The translations under genes were made by a program, and so were the position numbers. This document shows positions 5,169 through 30,647 of a DNA stretch of 36,493 nt, piece by piece; positions within the stretch are counted from its first letter, which is position 1; the number at the start of each line of letters is the position of its first letter. Origin of the DNA: Candidatus Shapirobacteria bacterium. GTDB taxonomy: Bacteria; Patescibacteriota; Microgenomatia; UBA12405. The notes under the pieces were generated by a model. It saw only the letters and a program-made list of their open reading frames with translations. It was not told where the DNA came from and did no database searches. The DNA is taken from the NCBI GenBank assembly GCA_018062705.1, contig JAGORQ010000009.1:1-36493 (forward strand), written 5' to 3'.

Positions 5169-5191
5169 TATAATCAGTAGTTGATTTTTTT

Positions 5192-5243
5192 GGGTCGTTT
5201 CAGCCAGAGGCTGATCCGCCTGTGGCGGAAGCTCAGCTTGTAA
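5192..5243 (+). pseudogene. tRNA-Lys 5' fragment followed by two hairpins
   Basis: The first eight bases of the tRNA-Lys gene (GGGTCGTT) are followed directly by two palindromes, TCAGCCAGAGGCTGA and TCCGCCTGTGGCGGA. A TATAAT box stands at 5169-5174, 17 bases before the fragment. It is the leftmost, most degraded copy of the array that ends in the intact tRNA-Lys at 5735. Confidence 0.6.
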
Positions 5244-5268
5244 CTGGGATAGATTTACTTAACAATTT

Positions 5269-5319
5269 GGGTCGTCAGCTCAGTCGGTAGATCCGCCAGC
5301 TGGCGGACTCTTAAGCGAT
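5269..5319 (+). pseudogene. tRNA-Lys 5' half with hairpin, joined to GIY-YIG gene
   Basis: Acceptor strand and D arm of tRNA-Lys (GGGTCGTCAGCTCAGTCGG) are followed by the palindrome TCCGCCAGCTGGCGGA in place of the 5' anticodon-stem strand, then by CTCTTAAGCGAT of the anticodon loop and 3' stem strand. The next base begins the ATG of the GIY-YIG gene. No T arm or 3' acceptor strand is present, so it cannot make a tRNA. Confidence 0.85.
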
Positions 5320-5586
5320 ATGGAATTTGTTGTCTATGTATTAATTAATTCGGAAACAAATAAAATATATATTGGTCAAACGACTAATTTGGAAAAGAGA
5401 ATTGATCGACATAATGGGTTGTTGGCAAACCGAACAAAAAGCTATACTTCAAAAAATAAAAATATAGGAATTTGGCTTTTGGGATACAAAGAGGTTTTAA
5501 AAACAAGAAAAGAAGCTATAATACGAGAGAAAGAATTGAAAAGTTATCAGGGTAGGCAATTCTTGAAAATAAAGTTGGGTCGTTAG
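5320..5586 (+). CDS. GIY-YIG nuclease family protein nested in tRNA-Lys copies
   Basis: A single-domain GIY-YIG endonuclease of 88 residues. The signature is present as FVVYVLINSETNKIYIGQT (VYV and YIG), followed by NLEKRIDRHN with the conserved Arg, and by the metal-binding Glu in EAIIREKELKSYQ. The ATG directly follows a partial tRNA-Lys copy. The last three codons and the stop (Leu-Gly-Arg-stop) come from the start of the next copy, GGGTCGTTAG. The gene is thus fitted exactly between two tRNA fragments. Such small free-standing proteins cut DNA; homing into the tRNA gene is my inference. The frame is undamaged, so it may be active. Confidence 0.9.
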   Translation: MEFVVYVLINSETNKIYIGQTTNLEKRIDRHNGLLANRTKSYTSKNKNIGIWLLGYKEVLKTRKEAIIREKELKSYQGRQFLKIKLGR

Positions 5587-5734
5587 CTCAGTCGGTAGAT
5601 CCGCCAACTGGCGGACTCTTAAGCGATTACCTTGATATAATTTAATTCTTTGTATGGGTCGTTAGCTCAGTCGGTAGATCCGCCAACTGGCGGACTCTTA
5701 AGCGATTACCTTGATATAATTTAATTCTTTGTAT
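5577..5734 (+). repeat. Two tandem 79-bp units of promoter plus tRNA-Lys 5' half with hairpin
   Basis: Identical units start at 5577 and 5656, and the intact tRNA starts one unit later at 5735. Each has the tRNA-Lys acceptor and D arm, the 16-base palindrome TCCGCCAACTGGCGGA, CTCTTAAGCGATTA from the anticodon arm, and a spacer with TTGATATAAT that can act as the -10 box for the next copy. The palindrome replaces the bases GCAATCGC of the intact gene. Confidence 0.95.
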
Positions 5735-5807
5735 GGGTCGTTAGCTCAGTCGGTAGAGCAATCGCCTCTTAAGCGATTGGTCGTGAGTTCGAGTCTCACA
5801 CGACCCA
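5735..5807 (+). tRNA. tRNA-Lys (anticodon CTT)
   Basis: Intact cloverleaf: acceptor GGGTCGT/ACGACCC, anticodon stem ATCGC/GCGAT with loop CTCTTAA (anticodon CTT), T arm GTGAG-TTCGAGT-CTCAC, discriminator A, no CCA. It is the last member of an array of broken copies and the only complete one. Its -10 box probably lies in the preceding repeat unit (TATAAT near 5714). Confidence 0.95.
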
Positions 5808-5809
5808 CA

Positions 5810-18351: not shown

Positions 18352-18372
18352 TGGTATAATACACAAGGTTTT

Positions 18373-18388
18373 GCCGCCATGGTGAAAT
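18373..18388 (+). pseudogene. tRNA-Leu 5' fragment (duplicate of 18510-18525)
   Basis: GTTTTGCCGCCATGGTGAAA with its flanking T at 18368-18388 is repeated exactly at 18505-18525, where it forms the start of the intact tRNA-Leu(CAG). The copies enclose a GIY-YIG remnant. Confidence 0.85.
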
Positions 18389-18390
18389 AA

Positions 18391-18522
18391 AACCTTCTTC
18401 CTTTTGGTATTGTGTTTGTTCAGATTTGTAATAGTTATACTGAAGCCAGGAAATTAGAAAAATATTTAAAATCTGGAAGTGGACGTGAGATAATACATGA
18501 GATAGTTTTGCCGCCATGGTGA
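18391..18522 (+). pseudogene. GIY-YIG nuclease remnant (C-terminal end) between tRNA-Leu copies
   Basis: The frame reads NLLPFGIVFVQICNSYTEAR then KLEKYLKSGSGREIIHEIV and ends with LPPW-stop. EAR..EKYLKSGSGRE is the usual last helix of small GIY-YIG proteins and contains the metal-binding Glu. The N-terminal GIY and YIG strands are gone; the frame begins right after a TAA. The last residues and the TGA stop are encoded by the first bases of tRNA-Leu(CAG) (GCCGCCATGGTGA), the same joint as in the tRNA-Lys array. Confidence 0.75.
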
Positions 18523-18591
18523 AATTGGTATACACGTACGTTTCAGAAGCGTATGCCGTAAGGCGTGGAAGTTCGAGTCTTCTTGGCGGCA
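18510..18591 (+). tRNA. tRNA-Leu (anticodon CAG)
   Basis: Class II tRNA with acceptor GCCGCCA/TGGCGGC and discriminator A. The anticodon stem TACGT/GCGTA (one T-G pair) encloses TTCAGAA, anticodon CAG. The long variable arm contains ATGCCGTAAGGCGT, as in the Leu(TAG) gene. No CCA. Confidence 0.95.
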
Positions 18592-18594
18592 CTG

Positions 18595-19764
18595 GTGATT
18601 TATTTTGTTCTAATATCGACACTGTTATTGTGGCTATGCTTGGGTATTTTTTCGTATCTATGGGTAAACAAGGCGATAATAACCATGTTGGTTCCAGCAC
18701 ACCACAGTTTTGGTTTTATGCTGGATGTGGCCGATTGGGCAGTAGCTAACCGAGAGTCGTTGTGGCTAGTTTGGCCAATATTGGTGGTATTTCTAGCTGG
18801 TCTTCAAGTCTGGTGGTTATTGAGGGCAGATAAAAACTTGCTTACTAAAAAAGTTTGGTGGTTAATAGCAATAGTTGAGCTAGTGGCTTGTTTGGGATAT
18901 CCATTTATTTCAGACGATATTTTTAGTTATTTATATTCTGGCAAGATGGTGGTTGATTACAAAGTTAATCCGTATGTAGTCATGCCTAAGGAGTTTTTTG
19001 GAAAAGACCAGTGGTTATTTTTTGTTAAAAATGTGGATAATGTGTATTATAAATTACATAATATTCCGATAACCTATTATTACGGGCCAGTGTTTTTGGG
19101 ATATACAAGTTTGTTTGTAAAAATTGTCGGAGGTGGTAAATTTTTGGGATTATTTTTTGGTTGGAAATTGTTAAATTGGTGGTGGTTTTTGCTGACGGGG
19201 TGGTTGCTAATGAAAATTGTGGAAAAAAAGAACACGGTCTTGGCTATTTGGTTTTTTAATCCCCTACTGCAGTTTGAATTGTTGGTTAACAATCATAACG
19301 ACCTGTTGATGATTTGTGTGTTTTTGATGACTTTTATTGTAAGTCAAAAAAATAGGCTGTGGACCGGAGTGTTGTTGGGCTTGTCAGTATTGATAAAGTT
19401 TGTGACAGTGTTGGGGGTGCCGTTATATTTTTTGAACGAGAAATGGCGCCGTCAGGGATTTAAATTAATGGGGTTTGCGATCTTGTTGTTAAATGCGGTC
19501 AAACCACTTCACCTGTGGTATTACAGTTGGATTTATTTGTTTTTCCCTATTGGTGGGTTGAAGAAAAGTAGTTGGGCAATTATCTTTTTGGGTCAAATGT
19601 TGATGATGTTAAATTATTCTGGCTACATTAAGTATGGGAGATGGACCGGGGCACCGTTTTTGCCGTCAATGGAGACAGTTAGGTGGATACTGTTGGTGTT
19701 GGTAATTTTTTGGGAATACAAACGATTTTTGAAAATAAATCTGTTAAAATACAAATACTTCTAG
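18595..19764 (+). CDS. Multi-pass membrane glycosyltransferase (GT-C, mannosyltransferase-like)
   Basis: About 389 residues with about ten transmembrane helices. The hallmark is SDDIFSYLYSGKMVVDYKVN after the third helix, a GT-C motif seen in polyprenyl-phosphate-mannose-dependent mannosyltransferases (MptA/B- and GT87-like), with NPYVVMP following and YYYGPVFLGYTSLF further on. FNPLLQFELLVNNHNDLLM is a second family-like loop. The frame is open from inside the tRNA-Leu gene; GTG 18595, four bases after the tRNA, is the earliest start outside it. It may share a transcript with the tRNA. Together with the gene at 16353 it points to cell-surface glycan synthesis. Confidence 0.8.
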   Translation: MIYFVLISTLLLWLCLGIFSYLWVNKAIITMLVPAHHSFGFMLDVADWAVANRESLWLVWPILVVFLAGLQVWWLLRADKNLLTKKVWWLIAIVELVACLGYPFISDDIFSYLYSGKMVVDYKVNPYVVMPKEFFGKDQWLFFVKNVDNVYYKLHNIPITYYYGPVFLGYTSLFVKIVGGGKFLGLFFGWKLLNWWWFLLTGWLLMKIVEKKNTVLAIWFFNPLLQFELLVNNHNDLLMICVFLMTFIVSQKNRLWTGVLLGLSVLIKFVTVLGVPLYFLNEKWRRQGFKLMGFAILLLNAVKPLHLWYYSWIYLFFPIGGLKKSSWAIIFLGQMLMMLNYSGYIKYGRWTGAPFLPSMETVRWILLVLVIFWEYKRFLKINLLKYKYF

Positions 19765-19777
19765 TCCGCCTGTGGCG
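19763..19777. repeat. Palindrome of TCCGCC type before tRNA-Phe
   Basis: AGTCCGCCTGTGGCGAGACA contains TCCGCCTGTGGCG, nearly the same hairpin as 5215-5229 (TCCGCCTGTGGCGGA) in the tRNA-Lys array. It stands seven bases before the tRNA-Phe gene. Confidence 0.6.
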
Positions 19778-19783
19778 AGACAA

Positions 19784-19856: not shown

Positions 19857-19952
19857 CAGAATTAATTAATAATTAATAATTACTAATTAAGAATTAAAAA
19901 AAATAATTCTTGATTTATAATAATTAAGTTTTTGATTAGTTTTTAACAATTT

Positions 19953-20106
19953 GCGAGAGTAGCTCAATTGGTTAGGCGCCCCGCTAAGCGGGGAGGTCGC
20001 AGTTTAAGCTATGATCGTTTTAACAATTTGCGAGAGTAGCTCAATTGGTTAGGCGCCCCGCTAAGCGGGGAGGTCGCAGTTTAAGCTATGATCGTTTTAA
20101 CAATTT
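19953..20106 (+). repeat. Two tandem 77-bp units with tRNA-Gly 5' part and hairpin
   Basis: Identical units start at 19953 and 20030; the intact tRNA-Gly starts one unit later at 20107. Each begins GCGAGAGTAGCTCAATTGGT like the tRNA, then carries the hairpin CCCCGCTAAGCGGGG where the anticodon arm should be, then AGGTCGC and a degenerate T-arm region. It ends TTTTAACAATTT, also the leader of the first unit. No 3' acceptor strand exists. Confidence 0.95.
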
Positions 20107-20179
20107 GCGAGAGTAGCTCAATTGGTGGAGCGTCTCCTTGCCAAGGAGAAGGTCGCGGGTTCGAGTCCCGTCTCTCGCT
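20107..20179 (+). tRNA. tRNA-Gly (anticodon GCC)
   Basis: Acceptor GCGAGAG/CTCTCGC, discriminator T, anticodon stem TCTCC/GGAGA with loop TTGCCAA (anticodon GCC), T arm GCGGG-TTCGAGT-CCCGT. It is the only full copy in a row of partial ones. The next gene's ATG is three bases after its end. Confidence 0.95.
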
Positions 20180-20181
20180 CA

Positions 20182-20433
20182 ATGTACTTTGTGTATGTGT
20201 TGCAAAGTTTAAATACCGGAAAGTATTACATAGGATTTACTGAAAATATTCAAAGAAGATTTCTAGAACATCAAAGTGGTAATTCGGTATTTGACCGAAC
20301 ATATGGACCTTTTTCCTTGGTACTTACCGAAAAATATTCGGATAAAAAGCTGGCGATGAAACGGGAGAAACAAATTAAAAGCTATAAAGGTGGAAACAGT
20401 TTTAAAGTGTTGATTGGTGGAGTGCCCCGCTAA
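20182..20433 (+). CDS. GIY-YIG nuclease family protein directly after tRNA-Gly
   Basis: An 83-residue single-domain GIY-YIG endonuclease: YFVYVLQSLNTGKYYIGFTE (VYV and YIG), NIQRRFLEHQ with the conserved Arg and His, and MKREKQIKSYKGG with the metal Glu. The start ATG is three bases after the tRNA-Gly 3' end. The frame also runs backward through the tRNA, but those codons are not protein-like. The last codons (Gly-Gly-Val-Pro-Arg-stop) lie in a second, hairpin-bearing copy of the tRNA middle part (GGTGGAGTGCCCCGCTAA). So both ends join tRNA sequence. The frame is intact and no helper gene is nearby. Insertion into the tRNA gene followed by repeat-driven duplication is the likely origin. Confidence 0.9.
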   Translation: MYFVYVLQSLNTGKYYIGFTENIQRRFLEHQSGNSVFDRTYGPFSLVLTEKYSDKKLAMKREKQIKSYKGGNSFKVLIGGVPR

Positions 20434-20469
20434 GCGGGGAGGTCGCGGGTTCGAGTCCCGTCTCTCGCT
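20413..20469 (+). pseudogene. tRNA-Gly 3' part with hairpin in place of anticodon arm
   Basis: From the D loop (ATTGGTGGAG) on, the sequence matches tRNA-Gly(GCC), except that the anticodon arm is CCCCGCTAAGCGGGG. The variable loop, T arm and 3' acceptor strand (CTCTCGCT) are intact. The 5' acceptor strand is missing. It overlaps the end of the GIY-YIG gene. Confidence 0.9.
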
Positions 20470-20471
20470 CA

Positions 20472-20609
20472 ATGTACTTTGTGTATGTGTTGCAAAGTTT
20501 AAATACCGGAAAGTATTACATAGGATTTACTGAAAATATTCAAAGAAGATTTCTATAACATCAAAGTGGTAATCACTTTAAGTTATTGATTGGTGGAGCG
20601 CCCCGCTAA
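20472..20609 (+). pseudogene. Deleted and nonsense-mutated copy of the tRNA-Gly GIY-YIG gene
   Basis: The first 84 bases are the same as in the gene at 20182, starting MYFVYVLQSLNTGKYYIGFT. At codon 29 GAA has become TAA (20556-20558). About 110 bases of the centre, including the metal-binding Glu, are deleted in frame, and the end again reads LLIGGAPR-stop inside a tRNA-derived hairpin. It is a non-coding deletion derivative with both ends kept. Confidence 0.9.
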
Positions 20610-20627
20610 GCGGGGAGGTCGCGGGTT
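20589..20627 (+). pseudogene. Third hairpin-bearing tRNA-Gly fragment
   Basis: ATTGGTGGAGCG, then CCCCGCTAAGCGGGG, then AGGTCGCGGGTT of the T arm; the match to tRNA-Gly is lost at 20628. It marks the right border of the array, 25 bases before the lipoprotein gene's stop. Confidence 0.85.
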
Positions 20628-23358: not shown

Positions 23359-23393
23359 TGCCCCATCGGTCGATGACATCGACACTTGGGGCC
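23359..23393 (+). pseudogene. tRNA-Gln-like fragment with hairpin
   Basis: TGCCCCATCG is the same as the first 10 bases of tRNA-Gln(TTG) at 23425. It is followed by the hairpin GTCGATG-A-CATCGAC and then ACTTGGGGCCA, which partly restores the acceptor 3' strand. This repeats the plan of the tRNA-Lys and tRNA-Gly fragments: tRNA end plus palindrome. Confidence 0.6.
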
Positions 23394-23424
23394 AAGTAAG
23401 GAACTTTTAAAAATTTGTAAATAA

Positions 23425-23495
23425 TGCCCCATCGTCTAATGGTAGGACAGCACCCTTTGGAGGTGTTTATTGTGGTTCAAATCCATGTGGGGCAA
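23425..23495 (+). tRNA. tRNA-Gln (anticodon TTG)
   Basis: Acceptor TGCCCCA/TGGGGCA with discriminator A. The anticodon stem GCACC/GGTGT encloses CTTTGGA, anticodon TTG. T arm TGTGG-TTCAAAT-CCATG with a weak last pair. First pair T-A, as common in tRNA-Gln. Confidence 0.92.
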
Positions 23496-23497
23496 CT

Positions 23498-23600
23498 GTT
23501 CGACTCGTCGCTCGTTACACTCGTGACTCGCTCACAGCTATAGCCTATTATTTAGGAATAAATGTTTGGATGTCTGGTCGAACATCCTGAGCGAAGTCGA
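23498..23600. repeat. Palindromic repeats between tRNA-Gln and a GIY-YIG pseudogene
   Basis: Two known-looking motifs are seen: GACTCGTCGCTCGTTACACT continuing CGTGACTCGCTCAC (self-complementary in part, 23502-23536), and TCGAACATCCTGAGCGAAG with TCGAAGGA (23578-23603), a palindrome of the CCTGAGCGAAGTCGAAGG class that I recall next to GIY-YIG genes in many uncultured bacteria. Confidence 0.6.
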
Positions 23601-23608
23601 AGGATAGT

Positions 23609-23813
23609 ATGTATTATGTCTATTTTTTACGAAGTTCCGATAACAGCCTTTATACTGGTCAAACGAATAATCTCGAGAAAAGGATTAAGGCTTGATGAAA
23701 GTTTTAAATTAGTTTACAAAGAGGAATTTTTAACAAGATTAGATTCGATGCGAAGAGAAAAGCAGTTAAAAGGTTGGACAAGAACCAAATTAGAGTTATT
23801 AAAGAAGCTATAA
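23609..23813 (+). pseudogene. Frameshifted, internally deleted GIY-YIG nuclease gene
   Basis: The ATG frame reads MYYVYFLRSSDNSLYTGQTN and NLEKRIKA-stop, the normal first half with GIY (VYF) and YIG (YTG) motifs and the conserved Arg. After the TGA, a different frame continues with FKLVYKEEFLTRLDSMRREK and QLKGWTRTKLELLKK, the normal second half with the metal-binding Glu. The residues usual between (HN...AKYT...RRP) are missing, so there was a deletion that also shifted the frame. It stands 113 bases after tRNA-Gln. Confidence 0.88.
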
Positions 23814-29362: not shown

Positions 29363-30001
29363 ATGCTCTACATAATTTCAACACCAATAGGGAATTTGAA
29401 GGATATTACTTTGCGGGCGGTGGAAACATTGGAACAATTGGATATTTTGCTTTGCGAAGATACCAGAAAAACTGGGTTGTTGTTGCAAAACTTAAAAATA
29501 GCCAATAAACCAAAATTGGTGTCGTTTTATGATGAAGTGGAAAGACAAAAAATTCCTCAAGTGATGGAATGGCTAAGAGAAGGATTGGAGGTGGGGCTAG
29601 TGACTGATGCTGGGACACCGTTGATTTCTGATCCGGGATGGTTGTTGGTTAAAAAATGCCATGACGAAGGCGTAAAATATACGGCACTGCCAGGTGCAAG
29701 TGCGGTGATTAATGCCTTGGTGTTGTCAGGCTTGCCAGTGGCAAGGTTTTGTTTTTTGGGTTTTTTGCCCAAAAAAGAGGGTGATATTAAAAAGCTTTTG
29801 GAAAAATATAAGGATTTTGAAGGGGTAAAGGTGGTTTACGACTCCCCGCTTCGAGTGGAAAAGTCAATAAAAATAATTCAAGAAGTTAATGGTGACAATA
29901 CGGATGTGCGGATAGTCCGGGAGATGACCAAGATGTATGAGTCGGTGGACCGAGAATTTGGGGGTGATACTCGGGGTGAGGTGGTGATTGTATTTATATA
30001 G
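29363..30001 (+). CDS. rsmI: 16S rRNA (cytidine-1402 2'-O) methyltransferase
   Basis: Tetrapyrrole-methylase-fold enzyme of 212 residues that methylates C1402 in the decoding centre. Typical motifs: STPIGNLKDITLRAVETL, CEDTRKTGLLL, LVTDAGTPLISDPG (SAM-binding), TALPGASAVINALVLSGL, FLGFLPKK and REMTKMYESVDREF. E. coli RsmI is about 286 residues, but short forms that end soon after the MYE region are common. The stop is directly followed by a palindromic repeat. A second, synonymously different version of the MYESVDREFGGD codons stands 0.7 kb downstream (30648-30688), so the present 3' end may have been brought by the inserted module. Confidence 0.95.
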   Translation: MLYIISTPIGNLKDITLRAVETLEQLDILLCEDTRKTGLLLQNLKIANKPKLVSFYDEVERQKIPQVMEWLREGLEVGLVTDAGTPLISDPGWLLVKKCHDEGVKYTALPGASAVINALVLSGLPVARFCFLGFLPKKEGDIKKLLEKYKDFEGVKVVYDSPLRVEKSIKIIQEVNGDNTDVRIVREMTKMYESVDREFGGDTRGEVVIVFI

Positions 30002-30084
30002 ATTCCCGCCTGCGCGGGAATGACTTTGGAGTAAAGCGCGGGAATGACTTTGGAGTAATACGCGAGATTGACGTTAGAGTTGAT
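30001..30084. repeat. Palindromic repeat array, left of the GIY-YIG gene
   Basis: GATTCCCGCCTGCGCGGGAA then TGAC forms a hairpin (30001-30023) beginning at the rsmI stop. Two shorter copies of its right half follow in tandem (TTTGGAGTAAAGCGCGGGAA and TTTGGAGTAATACGCGAGAT, each ending TGAC or TTGAC). Confidence 0.85.
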
Positions 30085-30103
30085 TGCAGGAATGATTTGA
30101 TAT

Positions 30104-30406
30104 ATGGTTCTAAAAACTAAATATTTTTCGGTTTATATAATGGCCAGTCAGAAAAACGGAACTTTGTATACAGGTGTTACCTCAAATTTAGCCAGAAGAG
30201 TTTACGAACATAAAACAGGAATAGTCGAAGGTTTTACTGATCGATATTCTGTTCACAATCTAGTTTATTTTGAAGTCCATGAAGATCCAATATCAGCGAT
30301 TATTCGAGAAAAACAAATTAAAAAATGGAAACGGGAGTGGAAAATAAAACTGATTGAAACAAAAAATCCAGAATGGATTGATCTATACAAAGATATTGTG
30401 TGGTGA
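30104..30406 (+). CDS. GIY-YIG nuclease family protein flanked by palindromes
   Basis: A 100-residue endonuclease of the YhbQ-like group: KYFSVYIMASQKNGTLYTGV (VYI and YTG), NLARRVYEHK with the conserved Arg and His, DRYSVHNLVYFEVHEDPISA, and IIREKQIKKWKREWK with the metal Glu; the end NPEWIDLY is typical of this subgroup. It lies inside a cassette of ATTCCCGC-type palindromes, bounded left by the rsmI stop and right by a displaced rsmI 3' end. The frame is intact. It is of a different subgroup from the tRNA-associated copies. It probably cuts DNA during spread of the cassette (inference); repair function is the other choice. Confidence 0.92.
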   Translation: MVLKTKYFSVYIMASQKNGTLYTGVTSNLARRVYEHKTGIVEGFTDRYSVHNLVYFEVHEDPISAIIREKQIKKWKREWKIKLIETKNPEWIDLYKDIVW

Positions 30407-30411
30407 CGTAA

Positions 30412-30645
30412 GGTCATCCCTGCGAAGGCAGGGATCCATGAATTTGAAGTTTGTTTATATAGATTCCCGTCTCCGCGGGAATGACTACTAAAAGTATGCA
30501 AAAATGACTGTTGTATTTTTTATTTAATGTTTGAAGACATCAGAGAGTCATCCCTGCGAAGGCAGGGATCCAGAGGTTGTAGAATGTTTGTATAGATTCC
30601 CGCCTTCGCGGGAATGACTTTGGAGTAATACGCGGGATTGACTAT
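30412..30645. repeat. Palindromic repeat array, right of the GIY-YIG gene
   Basis: Four hairpins in alternating orientation: GGTCATCCCTGCGAAGGCAG GGATCC at 30412-30437, AGATTCCCGTCTCCGCGGGA ATGAC at 30460-30484, GTCATCCCTGCGAAGGCAGG GATCC at 30547-30572, and AGATTCCCGCCTTCGCGGGA ATGAC at 30594-30618. The last is followed by TTTGGAGTAATACGCGGGAT TGAC. This REP-like family is widespread in bacteria. The 250-base stretch has no gene. Confidence 0.88.
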
Positions 30646-30647
30646 GC

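Follow-up and report, generated by a model that had tools for sequence, protein, structure and literature searches.

Small GIY-YIG genes and palindrome-bearing tRNA halves beside intact tRNA genes: an apparent, little-described class of selfish DNA

tRNA genes are essential, and they are classic integration sites for large genomic islands. In fungal mitochondria, HEG insertions displace the 3′ end of genes; the element supplies or duplicates part of the gene, and the displaced part remains. Fungal mitochondria also harbor double hairpin elements, which are paired perfect hairpins inserted in RNA genes. As far as the available text of the respective reports goes, REP palindromes and RAYT have been described (PMC3733652), and the rRNA genes of CPR bacteria contain GIY-YIG genes in insertions that are not introns, the insertions lying mostly at the tops or bases of stem-loops (PMC11270868). 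The available text of the latter argues against homing for GIY-YIG. Among the papers listed by our searches of the open-licence PubMed Central literature, no title or abstract opening describes bacterial tRNA halves with hairpins and GIY-YIG genes.

Here, we analyzed a 36,493-nucleotide stretch of DNA from a Candidatus Shapirobacteria bacterium (the window) and related loci in other genomes. In these loci, an intact tRNA gene has a gene for a single-domain GIY-YIG nuclease as its immediate, co-oriented neighbor. A half of this tRNA is found on the far side of the nuclease gene or upstream, and one of its arms almost always contains a palindrome or is replaced by one. The arrangement has the appearance of selfish DNA of a poorly described class, whose members would enter essential tRNA genes and spare one intact copy.

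tRNA loci of the window and their relatives

The tRNA-Gln site is one weak case of this large pattern. It comprises the following features:

23359..23368, +: repeat of tRNA-Gln nt 1-10 (5′ acceptor strand), TGCCCCATCG
23369..23383, +: perfect hairpin GTCGATG-A-CATCGAC, GTCGATGACATCGAC
23384..23397, +: piece resembling an acceptor 3′ strand, palindrome ACTTGGGGCCAAGT
23425..23496, +: tRNA-Gln(ttg), intact
23499..23608, +: leader of a GIY-YIG element, with TTCGACTC...GCTCACAG and CCTGAGCGAAGTCGAAGG (23586-23603)
23609..23813, +: dead GIY-YIG gene with an internal deletion and a frameshift (N part 23609-23692, C part 23688-23813)

The sequence-only reading of this DNA had described a 10-base duplication of tRNA-Gln followed by a hairpin and an acceptor 3′ strand, and this arrangement is present at 23359-23397. 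The upstream copy of TGCCCCATCG begins 66 bases 5′ of tRNA-Gln(ttg), and the window contains the 10-mer at exactly two positions, 23359 and 23425 (the start of the tRNA). An accidental origin of the match was rejected, as a first-order model predicts 3.3e-5 occurrences per 120 nt, far from the chance level that the reading had proposed as a check. Three of the 13 tRNAs of the window (Lys, Gly-gcc, and Gln) have their own 5′ 10-mer within 120 nt upstream; 10-mers from other tRNAs, used as a control, match in 2/154 cases, both being the adjacent tRNA itself. Folding 23359-23393, the other check proposed, gave an acceptor helix with the hairpin (-19.5 kcal/mol, z -4.5), and none of 200 shuffles was equally stable. 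The hairpin could also serve as a terminator of tRNA-Leu(gag). We rejected the view that it is merely this, given the similar halves found before tRNA-Gln in the related genomes G028, G026, G015, and G017.

Downstream of the tRNA, the palindromes and the frameshifted GIY-YIG gene that had been read from the letters were both recovered: the leader contains palindromic pieces, and the N-terminal and C-terminal parts of the gene are in different frames. The leader resembles those preceding F009 (G023, after tRNA-Gln-ctg) and F012 (G010). The dead gene matches that of G010 at 35/46 positions in its C part and 20/26 in its N part, and that of G023, which lies 99 bp after tRNA-Gln(ctg), at 32/44 and 20/25, respectively. 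The clade of the dead gene has a palindromic leader of its own, common to G023 and G010, so this gene is not necessarily the one that made the upstream half.

We searched for tRNA-Gln(ttg) in 34 genomes of the family and read 21 loci by eye. Hairpin-inserted halves precede the tRNA in G000 (the genome of the window), G026, and G028, and a degenerate one does so in G015. In G017, three parts stand in order: a 5′ tRNA-Gln half carrying a double hairpin, the C-terminal remnant of a GIY-YIG gene of the Gln-ctg clade (GREVLKDKIKYGL), and the whole tRNA. Other tRNA-Gln(ttg) sites are empty, with tRNA-Leu(gag) a few bases away; they include those of G009, G010, and G014, members of the same genus as G017. 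The tRNA-Gln feature therefore recurs and has an empty counterpart.

The window had been said to show GIY-YIG traces at four of its 13 tRNA genes, and this count is correct (Lys, Gly-gcc, Gln, and Leu-cag). The Lys and Gly-gcc loci are stronger cases than Gln:

5191..5240, +: 5′ piece of tRNA-Lys with a double hairpin (5200-5214, 5215-5229) at tRNA position 8
5268..5319, +: 5′ half of tRNA-Lys with hairpin TCCGCCAGCTGGCGGA (5292-5307)
5320..5586, +: intact 88-aa GIY-YIG gene; it starts where the tRNA-Lys half ends
5576..5733, +: two tandem 79-bp units, each with a tRNA-Lys 5′ half, a hairpin (5600-5615, 5679-5694), and promoter-like DNA
5735..5808, +: tRNA-Lys(ctt), intact
18368..18388, +: 21-nt copy of the 5′ end and leader of tRNA-Leu(cag), with no hairpin
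18418..18522, +: C-terminal remnant of a Leu-clade GIY-YIG gene, which overlaps tRNA-Leu(cag) (18510-18592)
19941..20094, +: two tandem 77-bp units, tRNA-Gly 5′ half with hairpin CCCCGCTAAGCGGGG
20107..20180, +: tRNA-Gly(gcc), intact
20182..20433, +: intact GIY-YIG gene, its end running into a tRNA-Gly 3′ half with a hairpin (20425-20439)
20440..20627, +: what is left of the 3′ tRNA-Gly half, then an incomplete second GIY-YIG copy (20472-20594) and another 3′ half, with a hairpin (20601-20615)

Both tRNA-Gly 3′ halves carry the same hairpin as the 5′ halves, CCCCGCTAAGCGGGG. The Leu-cag remnant, which reads ICNSYTEARKLEKYLKSGSGREIIHEIVLPPW followed by a stop, is invisible to Pfam. On other contigs, tRNA-Val(gac) and tRNA-Gly(ccc) have neighbors of the same kind. 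The tRNA-Ile(gat) of G000 is accompanied by a 5′ half whose position 8 holds a double hairpin; a GIY-YIG gene is absent.

Much of the family retains the tRNA order Leu, Arg, Arg, Lys. The Arg(tcg)-Lys spacing is 1-31 bp in many members and about 630 bp in G000. G011 and G017, which belong to one genus and have an identical tRNA-Lys (Lys-ctt), differ here by 55 bp; the difference consists of a 5′ half holding a 20-nt palindrome plus repeated upstream DNA, and no GIY-YIG gene is part of it. Palindrome-bearing Lys halves with no GIY-YIG gene in between were found in G008, G011, and G029. Close relatives thus carry empty and filled alleles at Lys (G011/G017, a half lacking GIY-YIG) and at Gln (G017 vs G009, G010, and G014). 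In L258 (G007) and L267 (G012), ARAGORN assigns Pyl(cta) to the tRNA that occupies the Arg(tct) position; this could reflect a mutated tRNA, one of suppressor type, or a wrong call.

Two further palindromic sites were observed in the window. At 29993-30646, the palindromes ATTCCCGCC..GCGGGAAT and ATCCCTGC..GCAGGGAT, in several copies, flank an intact GIY-YIG gene (30104-30406) and form with it a cluster away from tRNA genes. A degenerate TCCGCCTGTGGCG palindrome (19764-19783) lies immediately 5′ of tRNA-Phe.

Small GIY-YIG genes, tRNA genes, and target specificity

Of the nine small GIY-YIG loci in the window's genome, five have a tRNA gene within 300 bp, where about 3% would be expected (P 2.6e-6); for this count, the two Gly-gcc hits were taken as one, likewise the two parts of the broken Gln gene, and neither UvrC nor the Leu-cag remnant was included. 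In the 34 family genomes, 67 of the 120 small PF01541 (GIY-YIG) hits examined, a set excluding UvrC-type hits with frames of at least 200 aa, are within 300 bp of a tRNA gene. A comparison with random placement had been called for, and GIY-YIG genes are indeed nearer to tRNA genes than random. At 0-100 bp, the tRNA is on the same strand in 22/23 upstream and 30/30 downstream cases; beyond 700 bp, each 100-bp bin contains 0-8 tRNAs per 103-110 loci. The other 53 of the 120 hits are more than 300 bp from any tRNA. Whole clades of small GIY-YIG genes in the family (L090, L091, L099, and similar ones) are found away from tRNA genes.

Among 67 loci with a same-strand tRNA within 600 bp, a fragment of that tRNA with at least 14 matched nt was detected in 37 and one with at least 20 in 33. 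Six control runs with tRNAs of other amino acids yielded 1-6 and 0-1 fragments, respectively. A palindrome with a stem of at least 6 is present in the fragment or within 22 nt of it in 35/37 cases, compared with 217/941 background 95-nt segments (23%). The fragment is usually a 5′ half immediately preceding the gene at loci with a downstream tRNA, and usually a 3′ half immediately following it at loci with an upstream tRNA. In 30 of the 67 loci, the automatic scan found no tRNA fragment. One group of the fragment-less loci, in which halves are absent and a tRNA-Ser(gct), Asp, or Met gene lies about 80-195 bp upstream, may represent another arrangement. In several genera, GIY-YIG genes of the KSGWG type, again with no halves, follow tRNA-Ser(gct) or Asp(gtc) at a distance of 109-194 bp (L149, L154, L165, L151, L159, and others).

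These elements are about 0.3 kb long, and the only gene seen in them is the small GIY-YIG gene. It encodes a single domain of about 85 aa, in open frames of about 80-160 aa. PF01541 scores above the cut-off for the Lys and Gly genes of the window. Six residues (Y6, Y17, G19, R27, H31, and E70) are invariant in 18 aligned proteins, a conservation compatible with an active nuclease. PF01541 and the catalytic Arg and Glu place the proteins in the GIY-YIG superfamily, and they also conform to the single-domain UPF0213/SLX1-like type: the closest solved relatives by profile are UPF0213 1zg2 (E 1e-14), SLX1 (E 7e-8), and I-TevI 1mk0 (E 3e-4). The matches to homing and intron endonucleases given by PADLOC and NCBIfam were all weak or below threshold.

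The phylogeny of 114 GIY-YIG proteins (88 columns, rows shorter than 60 aa left out) has many weak forks. The 25 isoacceptor labels of its 65 tRNA-near rows require 33 changes on the tree, against at least 51 in 200 shuffles; genome labels do not cluster (53 changes vs a shuffle mean of 53.7). A search of 379 genomes of the phylum with the Lys-clade protein gave 29 hits beyond the query, 22 of which have a same-strand tRNA within 100 bp: 12 Asn, 6 Lys, and 4 others. A self fragment together with a stem of at least 6 is found in 18 of these 22. Five of the seven remaining hits abut a tRNA-Asn start broken after the anticodon region (L197, L204, L205, L221, and L222). Rfam identified a group I intron in L197, L205, and L221, where it lies beyond the nuclease gene, and those of L204 and L222 were recognized by eye. 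The group I introns in tRNA-Asn follow the anticodon, and the displaced tRNA halves end near the same place. Rfam found no intron in the window, where the nuclease genes are thus not inside self-splicing introns.

As expected of homing genes, the elements are found at their own targets in target-specific clades, as in 18/22 loci of the Lys/Asn clade, but the prediction that Cys-clade relatives sit at Cys throughout the phylum failed. None of the 30 best phylum loci retrieved with the Cys-clade query is at Cys or Tyr, and 14 of them are at 14 different isoacceptors. Together with the family tree and the Lys/Asn hits, this indicates that specificity is clear within the family and the Lys/Asn clade, and not everywhere.

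Searching GTDB contigs with the Gly-clade protein yielded 31 loci, 15 of which have a tRNA, in each case co-oriented, at a distance of up to 200 bp. Palindrome-bearing halves were observed in Patescibacteria, Endomicrobiales, Neomarinimicrobiota, Verrucomicrobia, and Bacteroidetes, one of them in an isolate of Flavobacterium sasangense. Several contigs terminate at these loci. The presence of a half in the isolate F. sasangense shows that assembly error is not the cause.

Palindromes of the displaced halves

The hairpin of the Lys/Asn clade is TCCGCCAGCTGGCGGA and variants of it with paired changes. It replaces positions 23-31 of tRNA-Lys; in tRNA-Asn it is usually situated at positions 13-16, in the D loop. 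A 20-nt palindrome, CCTGCCTGCCGGCAGGCAGG, is found in halves of Asn (two genomes), Lys-ttt, and Arg, the last in the isolate Leeuwenhoekiella blandensis, and in a Lys-ctt half. CCTGCCTGCCGGCAGGCAGG joins the tRNA sequence without loss of bases, as do 30-nt palindrome-holding inserts (double hairpins) in Lys, Val, and Pro halves. In a third class, most of the anticodon arm is replaced by a hairpin (Gly, Glu, Ile, Lys-ttt, Val, and Thr). These joins come from loci with a recognizable anticodon, and the 65 of them are not independent, as some genomes contribute several.

The sequence-only reading linked GIY-YIG genes, hairpins, and tRNA fragments, and this association holds. It had also suggested that a hairpin is picked or made for each target, which we rejected. 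One GIY-YIG clade uses TCCGCCAGCTGGCGGA on both tRNA-Lys and tRNA-Asn in many families, and CCTGCCTGCCGGCAGGCAGG is found in several tRNAs. Related palindromes are dispersed genome-wide, like the TCCGCC palindrome (TCCGCC-N2-4-GGCGGA), with 26 copies in G000 vs 2 for the reversed control.

We compared 14 distinct Lys/Asn hairpins of the 16-nt type with 2-3 flanking bases; they were hand-chosen, other lengths (L195, L198, L214, and L215) being left out, and this choice favors pairing. Three of the eight pairs show two-sided changes, a value reached by 73/500 shuffles. The covariation score is 0.214, against 0.105 in shuffles, and was reached by 1/500. At the genome level, at least three copies of TCCGCCAGCTGGCGGA are present in 12/28 genomes with a Lys-clade protein hit vs 23/351 without. 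A similar enrichment was obtained with hits of the Cys-clade query (20/87 genomes vs 15/292). The match between palindrome and clade therefore exists at the genome level, but we rejected it as a specific link since the Cys query predicts the palindrome too.

Proposed origin and comparison with known systems

We favor a homing-like explanation: tRNA-targeting GIY-YIG elements resembling homing endonucleases would leave palindrome-disrupted tRNA halves beside one intact tRNA. We give it an even chance of being right, the mechanism of movement being inferred. In element-free cells or tRNA genes, the nuclease would cut the tRNA gene around the D and anticodon arms, and repair would copy the element into the cut gene, as in homing. 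The host would survive by keeping one complete, transcribed tRNA, and the displaced half would stay as a scar. The palindrome in this half may abolish the site of cutting and make recombination or misfolding with the intact copy less likely. In the window, scars alone would be left at tRNA-Gln, namely an upstream hairpin half devoid of nuclease and a dead downstream nuclease gene of another clade. That this locus is a decayed member of such a class of tRNA-gene parasites seems to us equally balanced. The homing-like explanation draws on the adjacency, the self fragments, the palindromes, the target specificity, the outcome of the Lys-clade prediction, the filled and empty sites, and the invariant residues. 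Against it count the failure of the Cys clade, the halves lacking GIY-YIG (Ile-gat in G000; Lys in G008, G011, and G029), the 53/120 hits away from tRNA genes, and the 30/67 loci without a fragment. The intact tRNA of an element locus should also be cut, and we found no clear protection or change in it.

The explanation that we rank second takes the palindromes themselves as the mobile unit. The GIY-YIG protein would act on them in a transposase-like manner, as tyrosine transposases do on REP, and the tRNA halves would be preferred or tolerated landing sites. Several results point in this direction: the hairpin type tracks the GIY-YIG clade and covaries while remaining paired, the 20-nt palindrome and the 30-nt double hairpins enter tRNA halves with no base lost at the join, TCCGCCAGCTGGCGGA is enriched in genomes with Lys-clade hits, and palindrome halves exist without a GIY-YIG gene. 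We nevertheless regard it as rather unlikely, because the genome link is not clade specific and the Leu-cag locus has a hairpin-less duplication with a GIY-YIG remnant. In addition, we know of no palindrome transposition by GIY-YIG nucleases.

Local tandem duplications of tRNA parts, free of selection, might instead gather unrelated palindromes, the nuclease genes being hitch-hikers of tRNA promoters. Tandem units of 65-79 bp do exist, and palindromes are common in these genomes. This explanation is already weakened by the frequency of palindromes at the fragments relative to background, by the identical hairpin at an identical tRNA position in several families, and by the match between GIY-YIG clade and isoacceptor, and we consider it improbable. 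Still less credible, in our opinion, is a toxin-antitoxin-like system in which the nuclease attacks the tRNA and the transcribed hairpin half, often in tandem, is a restraining RNA decoy, somewhat as in type III systems. The tandem repeats adjoin the nuclease gene and the halves mimic the target tRNA, but halves occur without a nuclease gene and nuclease genes without halves, and the closest solved relatives are DNA nucleases.

A broader proposal, which we put forward tentatively and with some doubt, is that of a new class of mobile elements widespread in bacteria. A minimal GIY-YIG nuclease with a cognate palindrome would invade tRNA genes, swap or extend an arm of the displaced half, and keep one intact tRNA; palindrome-only copies would be non-autonomous derivatives. 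Elements of about 300 bp appear to parasitize tRNA genes repeatedly in one phylum and several others without stopping the cell. If true, this would account for many short GIY-YIG genes, for the tRNA debris of small genomes, and for some of the palindrome load, and it would provide a simple, testable system for the entry of a selfish nuclease into an essential gene.

Like free-standing GIY-YIG homing endonucleases of the I-TevI and phage Seg type, these elements consist of a small gene beside a conserved target and form target-specific clades. They differ in that there is no intron or intein and no separate DNA-binding domain, that the target half is duplicated, and that this half holds a palindrome. 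As with HEG insertions in fungal mitochondria, the host gene stays functional and the displaced part remains; those insertions concern protein genes of organelles, whereas here tRNA genes are affected, either half can be displaced, and the displaced part carries a palindrome. The paired perfect hairpins in RNA genes recall the double hairpin elements of fungal mitochondria, but the present ones are bacterial, measure 2 x 15 nt, and are situated in tRNA halves. Short dispersed palindromes with an associated enzyme gene are also features of REP/RAYT, as described in the available text (PMC3733652); here, the enzyme is GIY-YIG and not a HUH tyrosine transposase, and the palindromes are sited in tRNA halves, which sets these elements outside REP/RAYT. 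Finally, the target is a tRNA, which the available text on the CPR rRNA insertions does not mention, and the two systems share GIY-YIG genes in non-intron insertions (PMC11270868).
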